Assembly: GCA_021156365.1 (NCBI GenBank) | Contig: JAJNDK010000001.1 | Coordinates: 310,001-374,000 of the forward strand | Direction of reading: 5' to 3' | DNA from: Bacteroidota bacterium | Lineage (GTDB): Bacteria > Bacteroidota > Bacteroidia > B-17B0 > Aurantibacillaceae | DNA: 64,000 bases | In this document: positions 34,751-52,448 of the stretch, piece after piece | Position numbering within the stretch: the stretch's first letter is position 1 | Layout: the number at the start of each line of letters is the position of its first letter | Notes under the pieces: generated by a model | Seen by the model: only the letters and a program-made list of their open reading frames with translations | The model's database searches: none | Told to the model about the DNA's origin: nothing | Translations under genes and position numbers: made by a program

Positions 34751-36028
34751 TCAATATCCGTACTTATCCTTCCACAAAGCCCTGAGGTAGTTTCGCAATT
34801 CATTCTCGCGCGGGTTATTGCCCGGATTGTAAAAAACGCTTCCTTTCAGTTCTTCGGGCAGGTATTCCTGGTTCGAAAAATTATGCTGGTATTGATGCGC
34901 ATACTGGTAATCGGCTCCATACCCCAGCTCTTTCATCAATTTTGTAGGTGCATTCCGGATATGCAAAGGAACCGGCAGATCTCCCGTTTTTTTCACAGCT
35001 TCGAGTGCGCTTCCGATCGCCTCATACGAAGCGTTGCTTTTAGCAGAAGAAGCCAGGTACGTTGCACACTGCGATAAGATGATCCTTGACTCCGGGAAAC
35101 CGATCACATTCACCGCCTGGAAACAATTGTTGGCCAGCACAAGAGCAGTTGGATTCGCATTGCCGATATCTTCGCTTGCCAGTATCACCATTCGCCGCGC
35201 AATAAACAGTGCATCTTCCCCACCCTCTATCATCCGGGCCAGCCAATACACCGCCCCGTTGGGATCACTGCCCCGGATGGATTTGATGAAAGCGGAAATG
35301 ATATTGTAATGCTGCTCGCCGCTTTTATCGTACAAGGCCAGGTTTTGCTGAATGGCGCTTGTTACCAGCCCGTCCGTAATAACAACAGGATCCTCCGAGC
35401 TGAAACTAACGACCAGTTCCAATGCATTCAATAGCTTACGTGCATCTCCTCCCGAAATGCGGAGCAAGGCCTCTGTTTCTTTCAGCTCAATGTTTTTGCG
35501 CTTCAGCTCCAGATCATTTTCAATCGCACGTACCAGTACTGTTTCCAGCTCGGCCCTCGACAGGCTGTTCAATATATAGATCTGGCACCTGGATAAAAGT
35601 GCGGGTATTACTTCAAACGAAGGATTTTCGGTAGTAGCGCCAATGAGGGTAATGAGTCCCTTTTCCACAGCACCTAATAATGAATCCTGTTGCGATTTGC
35701 TGAAACGATGGATCTCATCAATGAACAAAACCGGTTTGCCCCTGCTGAACAGATCTTCGCTTTTTGCCTTATCGATCACTTCGCGGATATCTTTCACTCC
35801 CGAATTGATCGCGCTCAGGATATAAAAAGGCCGCTTCAGTGTTTTGGAAATGATATTGGCCAGCGATGTTTTTCCTACTCCCGGCGGACCCCAGAACAAA
35901 AGTGAAGGAAGGATATCTTTTTCGATGGCCTGCCGAAGTACCCCGTTCTTCCCGATAAGATGCTCCTGCCCGATGTACTCATCAAGTGTATTGGGACGAA
36001 GACGTTCGGAGAGAGGAATGGAATTCAT
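34751..36028 (-). CDS. rarA: Replication-associated recombination protein A
   Basis: A 425-residue AAA+ ATPase of the RarA/MgsA (WRNIP1) family that acts at stalled forks. Walker A GPPGVGKTSLA, Walker B LFIDEIHRFSK, sensor GATTENPSFEV, and C-terminal GGEDALFIARRMVILASEDIGNA are all present. The start MNSIPLSERLRP at 36028 fits family N-termini (PLAxRLRPxxLDExxGQ); the longer frame adds nine residues. It is convergent with the receiver gene. Confidence 0.96.
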   Translation of the reverse strand: MNSIPLSERLRPNTLDEYIGQEHLIGKNGVLRQAIEKDILPSLLFWGPPGVGKTSLANIISKTLKRPFYILSAINSGVKDIREVIDKAKSEDLFSRGKPVLFIDEIHRFSKSQQDSLLGAVEKGLITLIGATTENPSFEVIPALLSRCQIYILNSLSRAELETVLVRAIENDLELKRKNIELKETEALLRISGGDARKLLNALELVVSFSSEDPVVITDGLVTSAIQQNLALYDKSGEQHYNIISAFIKSIRGSDPNGAVYWLARMIEGGEDALFIARRMVILASEDIGNANPTALVLANNCFQAVNVIGFPESRIILSQCATYLASSAKSNASYEAIGSALEAVKKTGDLPVPLHIRNAPTKLMKELGYGADYQYAHQYQHNFSNQEYLPEELKGSVFYNPGNNPRENELRNYLRALWKDKYGY

Positions 36029-36080
36029 GAAAGGTAAAGATACTCTTATTGGCAATAAATTAAAAGTAAAATTATGTTAT

Positions 36081-36126
36081 AAGGCCACGTTTAACCGCAA
36101 AGAATATACGCAAAGGAACGCAAAGT
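36081..36126. repeat. Left arm of inverted repeat framing the GxxExxY gene
   Basis: Contains TTAACCGCAAAG then ATATACGCAAAGGAACGCAAAG (short CGCAAAG units). Its reverse complement pairs with 36591-36634. Same repeat family as 46291-46402 and 51551-51642. Confidence 0.75.
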
Positions 36127-36193
36127 TTTTTTGTGGGGTATAACAGAAAAATGGGATGTTTTTTTATATTTTAGTGTATAGTATTGCCCGATT

Positions 36194-36571
36194 ATGGATG
36201 AAAATGAATTGTCGAATAAAGTCATTGGTCTTGCTATAGAAGTACATACCTCCCTTGGCCCCGGCTTGCTTGAAAGTGCTTATAAGGAATGCTTGTTTTA
36301 TAAAATATCGAAATCGGGATTGTATGTGGAAAAGGAAAAGACAATGCCTTTAGTATTCGAAGAAATAAGATTGGATTGTGGTTATAGAATAGATATTTTA
36401 GTTAAAAACAAGTTAGTACTGGAGTTGAAAAGTGTAGACTCACTAAATGAAGTTCATTTGGCTCAAACCCTCACCTATATGAAATTAGGTGATTACAGAC
36501 TTGGATTACTAATGAACTTTAACGTCATCCGTTTAAAGAATGGCATAAAGCAGGTTGTTAACGACTTCTAA
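36194..36571 (+). CDS. GxxExxY protein (PD-(D/E)XK nuclease-like)
   Basis: A 125-residue protein with the defining G24-L-L-E27-S-A-Y30 motif in LGPGLLESAY, then D67 in YRIDILV and E77-L-K79 in VLELKS, the PD-(D/E)XK active-site layout, and a C-terminal LAQTLTYMKLGDYRLGLLMNF. Members are small, often present in several copies per genome, and of unproven function. Codon use is more AT-rich than the surrounding rarA and HipA genes. The gene is framed by inverted GCAAAG-rich repeats (36081-36126 and 36591-36634), as if the unit were inserted together. Catalytic residues are intact. Confidence 0.92.
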   Translation: MDENELSNKVIGLAIEVHTSLGPGLLESAYKECLFYKISKSGLYVEKEKTMPLVFEEIRLDCGYRIDILVKNKLVLELKSVDSLNEVHLAQTLTYMKLGDYRLGLLMNFNVIRLKNGIKQVVNDF

Positions 36572-36590
36572 CTATTTCATTACACCATCC

Positions 36591-36634
36591 CTTTGTGTTC
36601 TTCGCGTATACTCTTCGCGCCCTTTGCGGTTAAC
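36591..36634. repeat. Right arm of inverted repeat framing the GxxExxY gene
   Basis: Reads CTTTGTGTTCTTCGCGTATA on the + strand, then CCTTTGCGGTTAAC at its end; the reverse complement (GTTAACCGCAAAG start) aligns with 36090-36126. The arm ends four bases before the stop codon of the DUF3037 gene. Confidence 0.75.
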
Positions 36635-36637
36635 TTT

Positions 36638-37021
36638 TTATAGCACCAGTTCCTCAAACAATCGTTTGGCGGTTTGTTCCAGGTCCTTACAGAGCCCGGG
36701 ATGCGGGCGGGAAGTTTGAATGGCAGAGCTTCTCACAGCAGTAAGCCAGCGGAAACGCTCCGGCAGATCGAGCAATGCAATAGGCCCGCATTTTTCGGTA
36801 CCCATGGCTATCTTTTCGAAGGATTGCAAATTCGCCAGCATCTGCTGCACATCCGCTTCTTTGGAAAAAGCAGCTAATTTTTCTTCGTTAAGGTTAAAAT
36901 GTACGCGGATGAATTTTGCTTTTTTACAAAAGAGCACAATACCAACGTTCAGGAACTCTTCCCGTTCCACCACCGGCAACACACGGATCACCGCATACTC
37001 ATATAAGTGCTGCTCTTGCAT
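36638..37021 (-). CDS. DUF3037 domain-containing protein
   Basis: A 127-residue soluble protein starting MQEQHLYEYAVIRVLPVVEREEFLNVGIVL, the DUF3037 pattern (YAVIRxxPxxxReEFxNVGVVL), and ending with RPHPGLCKDLEQTAKRLFEELV. Function is unknown. Its first 23 bases overlap the end of the HipA-like kinase gene, and this pair is a recurrent gene neighbourhood, so the two products probably act together. Confidence 0.9.
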   Translation of the reverse strand: MQEQHLYEYAVIRVLPVVEREEFLNVGIVLFCKKAKFIRVHFNLNEEKLAAFSKEADVQQMLANLQSFEKIAMGTEKCGPIALLDLPERFRWLTAVRSSAIQTSRPHPGLCKDLEQTAKRLFEELVL

Positions 37022-37787
37022 GCTGTGCTTCTTTAGTGAAAATTTCCGAATGATGGAGACGGATCAATAAAAACTGTGCGTATATTTCCCTAAGCTCTTC
37101 AGGACTTTCCGGGTTGCCTTCCCAGCGCAGCCATTCATCGGGGATGAGCGCTACTAAGGAGCGGATCTTCTCTTCTGTGAGTAAAGTGCGAAGTTCCGTA
37201 TTCACTTCCTCCAGCAAACTTGCCTGTGAAAGTAGTACATGATCTTTTATCAGGCTGAAAGGACTTTTTGCATGCGTTTCCCAGGTGGTCCAGGAATGAT
37301 GGAAGTAAAGGGATGCCCCGTGATCGATCAGCCACAATTCTTTATGCCACATAAGCATATTGGTGTTGCGGAACGTGCGGTCTACATTGGTAATAAAAGA
37401 ATCCAGCCAGACGATCTTCGAAGCGAGCTTTGCATCTACTTTGGTAACCACCGGATCGAAGGTAATAGCACCCGACAGGAAATGCAGGGCAAGGTTCAAT
37501 CCCTGGCTGGCTTTCAGCAGATCCTGGATCTCTTCGTCGCCTTCCGTTCTTCCGAACGCTTCATCGAGGCTCGCAAACACTAATTCCGGAACCGGCAGAC
37601 CCAACATGCGGGCCAGCTCCCCTCCTATCAGCTCGGCAATCAGCGCTTTCACTCCATGCCCGTTGCCTTTGAATTTCAGTACATATTTAAAGTCATCGTC
37701 CGCTTCGGCCAATGCCGGCAAAGAGCCTCCCTCACGCAGGGGCGTAATGTAGCGGGTGACGTTGACGGTGCGTAAAGTAATGGACAT
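36999..37787 (-). CDS. HipA-like kinase
   Basis: A 262-residue protein with kinase-fold motifs of the HipA family: KYVLKFKGNGHG (Lys for ATP, ~residue 33), ELIGGELARMLGLPVPEL, catalytic NVDRTFRNTN (Asp and Asn, ~136-145) and LIDHGASLYF (metal-binding Asp, ~154). It lacks the N-terminal subdomain of full-length HipA (about 440 residues) and so is a short form. No HipB-like antitoxin is adjacent; the partner is the DUF3037 protein, translationally coupled. Substrate unknown; HipA itself phosphorylates glutamyl-tRNA synthetase. Confidence 0.85.
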   Translation of the reverse strand: MSITLRTVNVTRYITPLREGGSLPALAEADDDFKYVLKFKGNGHGVKALIAELIGGELARMLGLPVPELVFASLDEAFGRTEGDEEIQDLLKASQGLNLALHFLSGAITFDPVVTKVDAKLASKIVWLDSFITNVDRTFRNTNMLMWHKELWLIDHGASLYFHHSWTTWETHAKSPFSLIKDHVLLSQASLLEEVNTELRTLLTEEKIRSLVALIPDEWLRWEGNPESPEELREIYAQFLLIRLHHSEIFTKEAQHARAALI

Positions 37788-37820: not shown

Positions 37821-37952
37821 TCAAAATTAAACTTTATTTCACCCGTTAATTTTACTTTGAAAATTGCGTTTATTCTGCAGTATCAGGCACTTTATAGCTC
37901 TCCTGCCAGCGGCGGGACCCATTTCTTATAACATTGTGGTTAATCCGATCGC

Positions 37953-38141
37953 CATAGCAGTTATTCTCTTGATCATAGCAGTTATTCCCTTGACCATAGC
38001 AGCTATTCTCTTGATCATAGCAGTTATTCCCTTGACCATAGCAGCTATTCTCTTGATCATAGCAGTTATTCTCTTGATCATAGCAGTTATTCCCTTGATC
38101 ATAGCAGTTATTTCCATGACCATAGCAGTTATTTCCATGAC
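37953..38141. repeat. 21-bp tandem repeat, nine units
   Basis: Units begin CATAGCAG(T/C)TATT followed by C(T/C)CTTGA(T/C) or TCCATGAC; nine complete units at 21-bp spacing, then a partial CATAGCG. Variants alternate (CTCTTGAT / CCCTTGAC), showing expansion of a 42-bp double unit in the left part. The period is seven codons, so every frame stays open, but there are no ATG starts and no coding signals. Confidence 0.93.
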
Positions 38142-38207
38142 CATAGCGTAAATTCCGGGTCTATTCAATAAACTGTGTCAGCTACTTAAACTGTCGCCTA
38201 TAAAAAA

Positions 38208-46280: not shown

Positions 46281-46290
46281 TTCGATATGG

Positions 46291-46402
46291 CACGCAAAGA
46301 CGCAGAGAGCGCAAAGCAATGTGCAGATAAAGTTCAGAATCCTTAGGTTCGGGAGCTACCAACAAAAATAAATATTCGCGCTCTTTGCGTCTCTGCGCGA
46401 AA
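46291..46402. repeat. Inverted GCAAAG-repeat copy without a gene
   Basis: Left CGCAAAGACGCAGAGAGCG (46293-46311) with GCAAAG after it; right TTCGCGCTCTTTGCGTCTCT (46375-46394) with GCGCG after it. The right arm's reverse complement matches the left with a few A/G changes. It lies between the convergent ends of the holin-like and WG-repeat genes. Confidence 0.8.
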
Positions 46403-46414
46403 CATTGTGGTGCG

Positions 46415-51510: not shown

Positions 51511-51550
51511 CCGGGATTTAACCGCAAAATGCGCGAAGAAATGCCTGTGG

Positions 51551-51642
51551 CTCGCAAAGACGCAAAGAGCGCAGAGGTTTTAAAATTGTTGAGGTTACCG
51601 CTTGTTTTAATTTGTACTCTGCGCTCTCTGCGTCTCTGCGCG
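51551..51642. repeat. Inverted GCAAAG-repeat copy without a gene
   Basis: Left CGCAAAGACGCAAAGAGCGC (51553-51572); right CTCTGCGCTCTCTGCGTCTC (51617-51636), a near-exact reverse complement, 40 bp apart. Just upstream (51518-51540) is TTTAACCGCAAAATGCGCGA, also part of the repeat at 36081. It lies between convergent genes. Confidence 0.82.
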
Positions 51643-51647
51643 AAAAT

Positions 51648-52448
51648 TTAGGGTGTGAGCGTAATGATATTATTACTCAGATTCGCCAGCATATAGGCGC
51701 TTTCGGGATGCAGCCTGTTTTCAAACGGCGATTTTTCATCGTCTGTGAGAAGTAAAACGATCTCTGCTTCCGAACGCTCGGCATAATCCACCACCGCTTT
51801 ACTAATGGAATCGCCTTCCTGCCTGCTGCAGCGCATGATCTCGCCGGTGCACTCGCAGCCCAGCCGTTCGATGAAGTGAACAAGGTGCTGCATTTGGTAG
51901 ATATTCCTGTTCACCACATAATCGTTCGCGTCGAATACCACACTCATCAGGCGGATCAAAGCTCCGTTAAAGAATTGCGAAAAGAAAATAGCGTTACTGA
52001 TCTTCTTTTTGTTCTCCTGCGTTACATCGAGGGGAAGCAGGATCGAGCTGATCGCATCGAATTTTATATCTGTTTTGAAAACGATCACAGGTACGGGAGA
52101 GGTTTCGATAATTCGGGAAGAAACAGTGCCTATTGTTTTATGGTTCACCGAACCCGGCTGGTCTTTGTTGATGATGATACCGGAAGCGTCGATCTCTTTG
52201 GAAAATGCTACCACCTGTTCTGCCACATCACCTTTTTTCACTACGGCTTCTGCGTGAATATCCTGATCGGCCAGCCATTTTTCCAGCTTTGCCTGTTCCG
52301 CTTTTTCATCTGCTTCCGGGGCGCAAACAGTAATGGCGATCAGCTTAAAATCGTTGGCTCTTTTGAATGCCATAATGGAGTGAACAATTTTTTCGCAGGA
52401 CAGCGAAAATTTCACAGGTAGTACGATCTTATATCCGGATTTAATCAT
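51648..52448 (-). CDS. Universal stress protein family, two-domain
   Basis: A 266-residue cytosolic protein of two USP-like domains (~1-135 and 140-266). The first starts YKIVLPVKFSLSCEKIVHSIM, has DASGIIINKDQPGSV and ends SSRIIETSPVPVIVFK; the second starts SILLPLDVTQENKK and ends LANLSNNIITLTP. The usual ATP-binding G-x2-G-x9-G(S/T) motif is only partly kept in each half, so nucleotide binding is doubtful. Single gene. Confidence 0.85.
   Translation of the reverse strand: MIKSGYKIVLPVKFSLSCEKIVHSIMAFKRANDFKLIAITVCAPEADEKAEQAKLEKWLADQDIHAEAVVKKGDVAEQVVAFSKEIDASGIIINKDQPGSVNHKTIGTVSSRIIETSPVPVIVFKTDIKFDAISSILLPLDVTQENKKKISNAIFFSQFFNGALIRLMSVVFDANDYVVNRNIYQMQHLVHFIERLGCECTGEIMRCSRQEGDSISKAVVDYAERSEAEIVLLLTDDEKSPFENRLHPESAYMLANLSNNIITLTP

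Follow-up and report, generated by a model that had tools for sequence, protein, structure and literature searches.

The closest described arrangement to the locus analysed here is the REPIN-RAYT system, in which a chromosomal enzyme gene is flanked by inverted palindromic repeats, gene-less hairpins are located extragenically and the repeat is specific to the enzyme (PMC3116915; PMC8266576). Likewise, GxxExxY genes are flanked by inverted repeats that are also found gene-less in the genome. In contrast to the HuH/Y1 transposase of REPIN-RAYT, the GxxExxY enzyme is a PD-(D/E)XK protein with PF13366 as its only Pfam match. Its arms carry no GTAG (or CGTC) tag at the hairpin foot but start with (TT)AACC, and they continue as arrays in which units of 7-9 bp follow one another at intervals of about one helical turn. 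Unlike REPIN-RAYT, GxxExxY units range over Bacteroidota and several other phyla. As the defining HuH enzyme and the GTAG tag are absent, the GxxExxY unit is not a member of the REPIN-RAYT group.

With insertion sequences and MITEs the units share inverted ends, internally deleted gene-less derivatives, and filled and empty sites (A, B and recQ, see below). They differ in that the single ORF is a PF13366 protein without a transposase domain, that no target-site duplication is visible in comparisons between species, and that the arms are degenerate motif arrays whose motif class varies between the units of one genome. Having no transposase and, between species, no visible duplication, they do not look like classical insertion sequences or MITEs. 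The nearest precedent for a PD-(D/E)XK enzyme tied to DNA mobility are the Rpn nucleases (YhgA-like, transposase_31), which have been linked with DNA mobility and RecA-independent transfer (PMC5350276). The GxxExxY domain differs from theirs, and a Pfam scan of the protein studied here gave PF13366 only and no Rpn match.

That protein is a clear member of the GxxExxY/PDDEXK_3 family (TIGR04256, PF13366), which is described only as being of unknown function. In the searched literature, the family name appears in passing mentions, the motif strings gave chance matches only, and we found no paper linking PDDEXK_3 with inverted repeats. The anatomy of the element is likewise not described in this literature, which was mostly without subscription journals and preprints; a prior description is possible. 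The unit lies in a 64,000-nucleotide stretch of DNA from a Bacteroidota bacterium (hereafter the window). It probably belongs to a widespread class of small units inserted into chromosomes, with one GxxExxY gene apiece, and our findings suggest that these are selfish or domesticated mobile elements of a kind that has received little recognition. An earlier note on this DNA had proposed a small mobile or selfish unit with the nuclease as candidate mobilising enzyme, a proposal now supported by filled and empty sites, by arms at nearly all GxxExxY genes and by the tracking of motif and enzyme.

The window unit, its nuclease and related loci

The window unit consists of a single GxxExxY gene between inverted CGCAAAG arrays (Table 1). 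The terminal 12 nt of the two arms match perfectly. The sequence TTAACCGCAAAG forms both outer ends of the unit and, with at most one mismatch, occurs six times in the window (0.5 expected), a number reached in none of the shuffles. The inverted arms reported in the earlier note at 36081-36126 and 36591-36634 are real, but the left edge had been placed about 10 nt too far out. On the right, the arm ends 5 nt from the stop codon of the DUF3037 gene. The enclosed gene has a G+C content of 34.4% (window, 44.4%) and, in agreement with the AT-richer codon use noticed before, a GC3 of 0.37 as compared with 0.53-0.54 in the neighbouring rarA, DUF3037 and HipA-like genes.

Table 1. Positions of the unit, its neighbours and the gene-less inverted pairs within the window
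Feature	Position	Strand	Description
rarA	34751-36055	-	neighbour of the unit
Whole unit	36091-36633		543 bp, arm-gene-arm, between rarA and DUF3037
Left arm	36091-36126	+	TTAACC end, three inward CGCAAAG units (36096, 36109, 36119); TTAACCGCAAAGAATATACGCAAAGGAACGCAAAGT
GxxExxY gene	36194-36571	+	125 aa, PD-(D/E)XK nuclease family, D67/E77/K79 intact
Right arm	36591-36633	-	TTAACC end, inward CGCAAAG/CGCGAAG/CACAAAG units; TTAACCGCAAAGGGCGCGAAGAGTATACGCGAAGAACACAAAG
DUF3037 gene	36638-37021	-	neighbour of the unit
Gene-less inverted pair	46290-46403 (about)		CGCAAAGACGCAGAGAGCGCAAAG ... CTCTTTGCGTCTCTGCGCG, L004-type arms
Gene-less inverted pair	51517-51650 (about)		arms mostly L004-type, TTTAACCGCAAA start; hairpin fold z -3.6

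Only one genome of the same genus (G001) was found to contain both flanking genes. There, synteny is broken, with rarA on one contig and the DUF3037 and HipA-like genes on another; from this split, the unit may sit at a rearrangement junction (region 34751-37787).

The window protein matches TIGR04256 with 135.2 bits (cut-off 35) and PF13366 with 131.4 bits (cut-off 22). The putative active-site residues D67, E77 and K79, already recognised as intact in the single enclosed gene, are invariant in an alignment of 35 rows. An AlphaFold2 model (pLDDT 94.9) has PD-(D/E)XK nucleases as structural neighbours, namely SSO0001/Cas4 with the best Z value of 9.8, lambda exonuclease, and Hjc-type resolvases with 6.8. 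These middling values speak for the PD-(D/E)XK fold of the modelled protein rather than for a function. From the model, the enzyme is classified as a RecB/Cas4-like PD-(D/E)XK nuclease with predicted activity. PADLOC and PHROGs returned weak matches only, to Cas4-like profiles or profiles of unknown function, and the weak Cas4 match agrees with the structural neighbour SSO0001/Cas4. A sequence search of the PDB with the window protein gave nothing useful. The family is chromosomal, with matches in 8 of 72,556 plasmids and in none of 50,697 phage records, numbers too small to follow polymorphism among strains.

Framing by inverted arms is a general property of these genes. In the genome that contains the window, all four GxxExxY genes are framed, and no two of them share a motif (CGCAAAG in the window, CGCAGAG at L004, CGCAGATT at L001 and CATATAAGG at L002). 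For a wider view, 119 loci were collected from a sample of the phylum and from named genomes, several of them MAGs, of Bacteroidota, Planctomycetota, Acidobacteria, Verrucomicrobiota, Ignavibacteria and others. In an arm, a motif of 7-9 bp recurs in 2-4 imperfect copies, usually with a (TT)AACC start. The spacing of the units peaks at 9-11 bp and again at 20-21 bp, i.e. about one per helical turn. Two or more inward units on both sides were present at 76 of the 119 loci, whereas the outward control gave 8 of 119 and neighbour genes 1 of 225. Matching inward arms, scored by motif or by alignment, frame 99 of the 119 loci. About 20 have no arm on one or both sides by the criteria used, most of them with one arm kept. 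Absence of arms beside other GxxExxY genes, named in the earlier note as evidence against an element, is thus clearly not what is observed.

Filled, empty and decayed sites

Flanks joined across the units served as queries against genus g57 and its family. All comparisons are between species, and some absences may therefore be losses. Site A carries a 430-bp unit in G056, G102, G028 and G165, is decayed with both arm ends kept in G040, and is empty in G177, G071, G067, G048 and G079. Site B is filled in G056 and G028 and lacks the unit in G040, G165, G177, G071, G079 and G044; its flanks in filled G056/G028 and empty G040/G165 are 94.7-97.6% identical. The more distant G067 has a unit at this site as well (L157), so that an old unit with later losses, or a transfer by recombination, is conceivable here. 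At site C, a 518-bp unit in G165, G040, G102 and G028 is represented in G056 by an 87-bp gene-less remnant with both arm ends. The recQ site is filled in four species, contains a truncated gene in G102 and is empty in G177. Empty sites in relatives, one of the checks named in the earlier note, are present at A, B and recQ. Target-site duplications at the arm ends, another of those checks, were not seen in these between-species comparisons; at the site B junction none is visible, and about 13 bp of target look replaced.

Several further differences were noted between these genomes. At site B, the units L156 and L161 (G028 and G056) are 97.8% identical and thereby more alike than their flanks (about 93%), hinting at a recent transfer of the unit or at stronger constraint. 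In G091 and G264 (L107 and L112), a nuclease gene occupies the same intergenic site in opposite orientation, which would stem either from an inversion of the segment between the arms in place or from two separate insertions. At L184, a hairpin site, G067 and G071 are empty, four species have a GxxExxY-type hairpin, and G040 and G177 have a four-helix-bundle gene exactly in its place. The latter gene (TIGR02436; L201:379-732 and L202) has its own AATGATTGATG-like inverted repeats and may represent a second class of small gene framed in this way. A 550-bp difference near L170 resembled an insertion and turned out to be another gene adjoining the unit. In four g57 loci (L169, L171, L172 and L178), the GxxExxY unit is located directly upstream of recQ, and an open frame of 883-896 aa runs through the right arm into recQ, possibly encoding a fusion protein as far as the reading frame indicates.

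The nuclease might instead be a resident host enzyme that trims or resolves, for example, hairpins or cruciforms, with the arms as regulatory or substrate sites and rare insertions arising by general recombination between repeats. We regard this as unlikely, although several observations are in accordance with it. Between species, dN/dS of GxxExxY genes at fixed sites is mostly 0.02-0.15 and at most 0.31, so that the gene is evidently kept. Such purifying selection at orthologous sites would be expected of a host function no less than of a selfish one. The fold lies near repair-type PD-(D/E)XK enzymes (the Cas4/SSO0001 and Hjc neighbours named above), and the presence of the arms elsewhere as hairpins makes recombination between them possible. 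However, the empty sites at site B are without any arm, which argues that the whole arm-gene-arm unit, and not the gene alone, was gained or lost. Moreover, unlike a housekeeping gene, GxxExxY genes can number as many as 12 in one genome, divergent from each other and with different motifs, and 144 of 296 sampled genomes of the phylum have none (TIGR04256 is present in the other 152).

Arm motifs, enzyme clades and gene-less hairpins

In 17 genomes, GxxExxY genes were ranked by their similarity to L002. All 11 enzymes with at least 59% identity to L002 have CATATAAG/CATTTAAG-type arms, nearly all of them on both sides. The four enzymes with 54-57% identity all have ACACATAG arms, and none of the 35 enzymes with at most 50% identity in the same genomes has CATATAAG arms. 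On the tree of the 51 labelled genes from these genomes, the arm class changes four times, the minimum being three. Shuffling the labels within genomes gave a mean of 23.1 changes and a lowest value of 16, and none of 1000 shuffles was as low as observed. The arm motif follows the enzyme clade and not the host. Near-identical units at shared sites inflate this match somewhat, although the main classes are each spread over different families and different sites, and the co-inheritance of enzyme and arm could in part be descent at shared sites among sister species. A Mantel test on 83 loci was weak but significant (r = -0.22, p = 0.001), and the host-controlled tree test was used instead. Consistent with the pairing, copies of CATATAAGG were found in 16 genomes, all of them GxxExxY-positive, and all seven genomes with at least two CATATAAGG matches have their own L002-type enzyme.

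Co-occurrence of arm family and gene, proposed as a test in the earlier note, is seen across the Bacteroidota. Among 296 genomes sampled from the phylum, 71 contain the pattern AACCRCARAGNNCRCARAG, whereas its reversed control gave one match in total. TIGR04256 was detected in 69 of the 71 motif-bearing genomes and in 83 of the 225 without the motif (p = 8e-22, with genomes counted as independent). These numbers bear on a further explanation, in which another transposase moves the arms, these being a MITE or REP family unrelated to the nuclease, and the GxxExxY genes are captured passengers. Such a scenario would account for arms that far outnumber the genes and for a nuclease family without known classical transposase chemistry. 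It is nevertheless very improbable, since the arm motif tracks the enzyme clade inside single genomes, almost every motif-bearing genome contains the gene, and framing of neighbour genes is almost absent (1 of 225).

The window itself contains two gene-less inverted pairs (Table 1), which had been taken for copies of the same repeat. Both pairs exist, but their arms score 34-41 against the L004 arms and 17-34 against those of the window unit. Since they are more like the L004 arms, the description as copies of one repeat is only partly right. In 750 kb of the window's contig there are six inward CRCARAG-type pairs, including one that encloses the gene, and four of the CRCAGATT type; the reversed motifs formed no inward pairs there. 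The literal pattern CGCAAAGNNNNCGCAAAG had no matches in the same genome because the unit spacing varies.

Gene-less hairpins sharing the arm motifs of GxxExxY units are scattered intergenically. In two g57 species they are compact (41-69 bp, eight measured) and frequently lie 0-8 nt past a stop codon. Three example hairpins of the class have single-strand folding z values of -4.3 to -5.3, and Rfam gave no match around the elements. The short gene-less derivatives suspected from the window are borne out by these common same-motif hairpins and by the derivative at site C in one species. In the genome of the window, a gene-less CGCAAAG element (L142:430-650; C22:319030-319250) apparently contains CATATAAGG-type sequence, which suggests, as read from the letters, a nesting of the two families.

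Among gene-bearing units, 47 of 166 sides are located at most 12 nt from a stop codon, compared with 18 for start codons. These positions, together with the many gene-less hairpins beginning 3-8 nt after a stop, would fit a reading in which host selection keeps the arms beside stop codons as terminator or mRNA-end hairpins, with the nuclease framing as a by-product. This reading is very improbable. It leaves unexplained why the motifs on the two sides of a single gene family match and why neighbour genes are unframed, as well as the enzyme-specific motifs and the whole-unit empty sites. The placement may reflect a target preference or what selection tolerates.

A putative route of spread and its implications

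For the insertion unit favoured here, we propose that the nuclease would recognise the motif array, either as DNA or as the hairpin or cruciform formed by it, and cut or trim it. Repair or replication would then copy the unit, or a gene-less hairpin, into intergenic DNA. This insertion would proceed without a clean duplication and may replace a few target bases. Units do lose their gene and leave arm-only hairpins, as at site C. Given the strong purifying selection at long-held sites, the gene may be maintained there to serve its hairpin population, or may have gained a host role, comparable to RAYTs and REPINs. We give an even chance to the more far-reaching proposal of a separate class of mobile elements that has GxxExxY nucleases as its only enzymes. 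Here, a restriction-type PD-(D/E)XK nuclease would read its own array spaced by helical turns, switch specificity clade by clade, and spread itself and gene-less hairpins without transposase chemistry or target duplication, with several enzyme-motif pairs in one genome.

A tiny nuclease carried by hundreds of bacteria without a known function is almost always the sole gene of an insertable unit. This provides a testable role for a large uncharacterised nuclease family that roughly half of the genomes sampled from the phylum possess, and a likely source of many short intergenic palindromes in these genomes. It also suggests that a resident enzyme with a hairpin population, the design of REPIN-RAYT, arose independently around an unrelated enzyme. 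As enzyme clade and motif correspond almost one to one, the family further offers a naturally occurring set of small nucleases whose specificities can be read (CRCARAG, CATATAAG, ACATAG and CRCAGATT).

Apart from the unit, short tandem repeats at 37864-38168 of the window give rise to low-complexity frames on both strands (ITAMIKRITAMIKR...).
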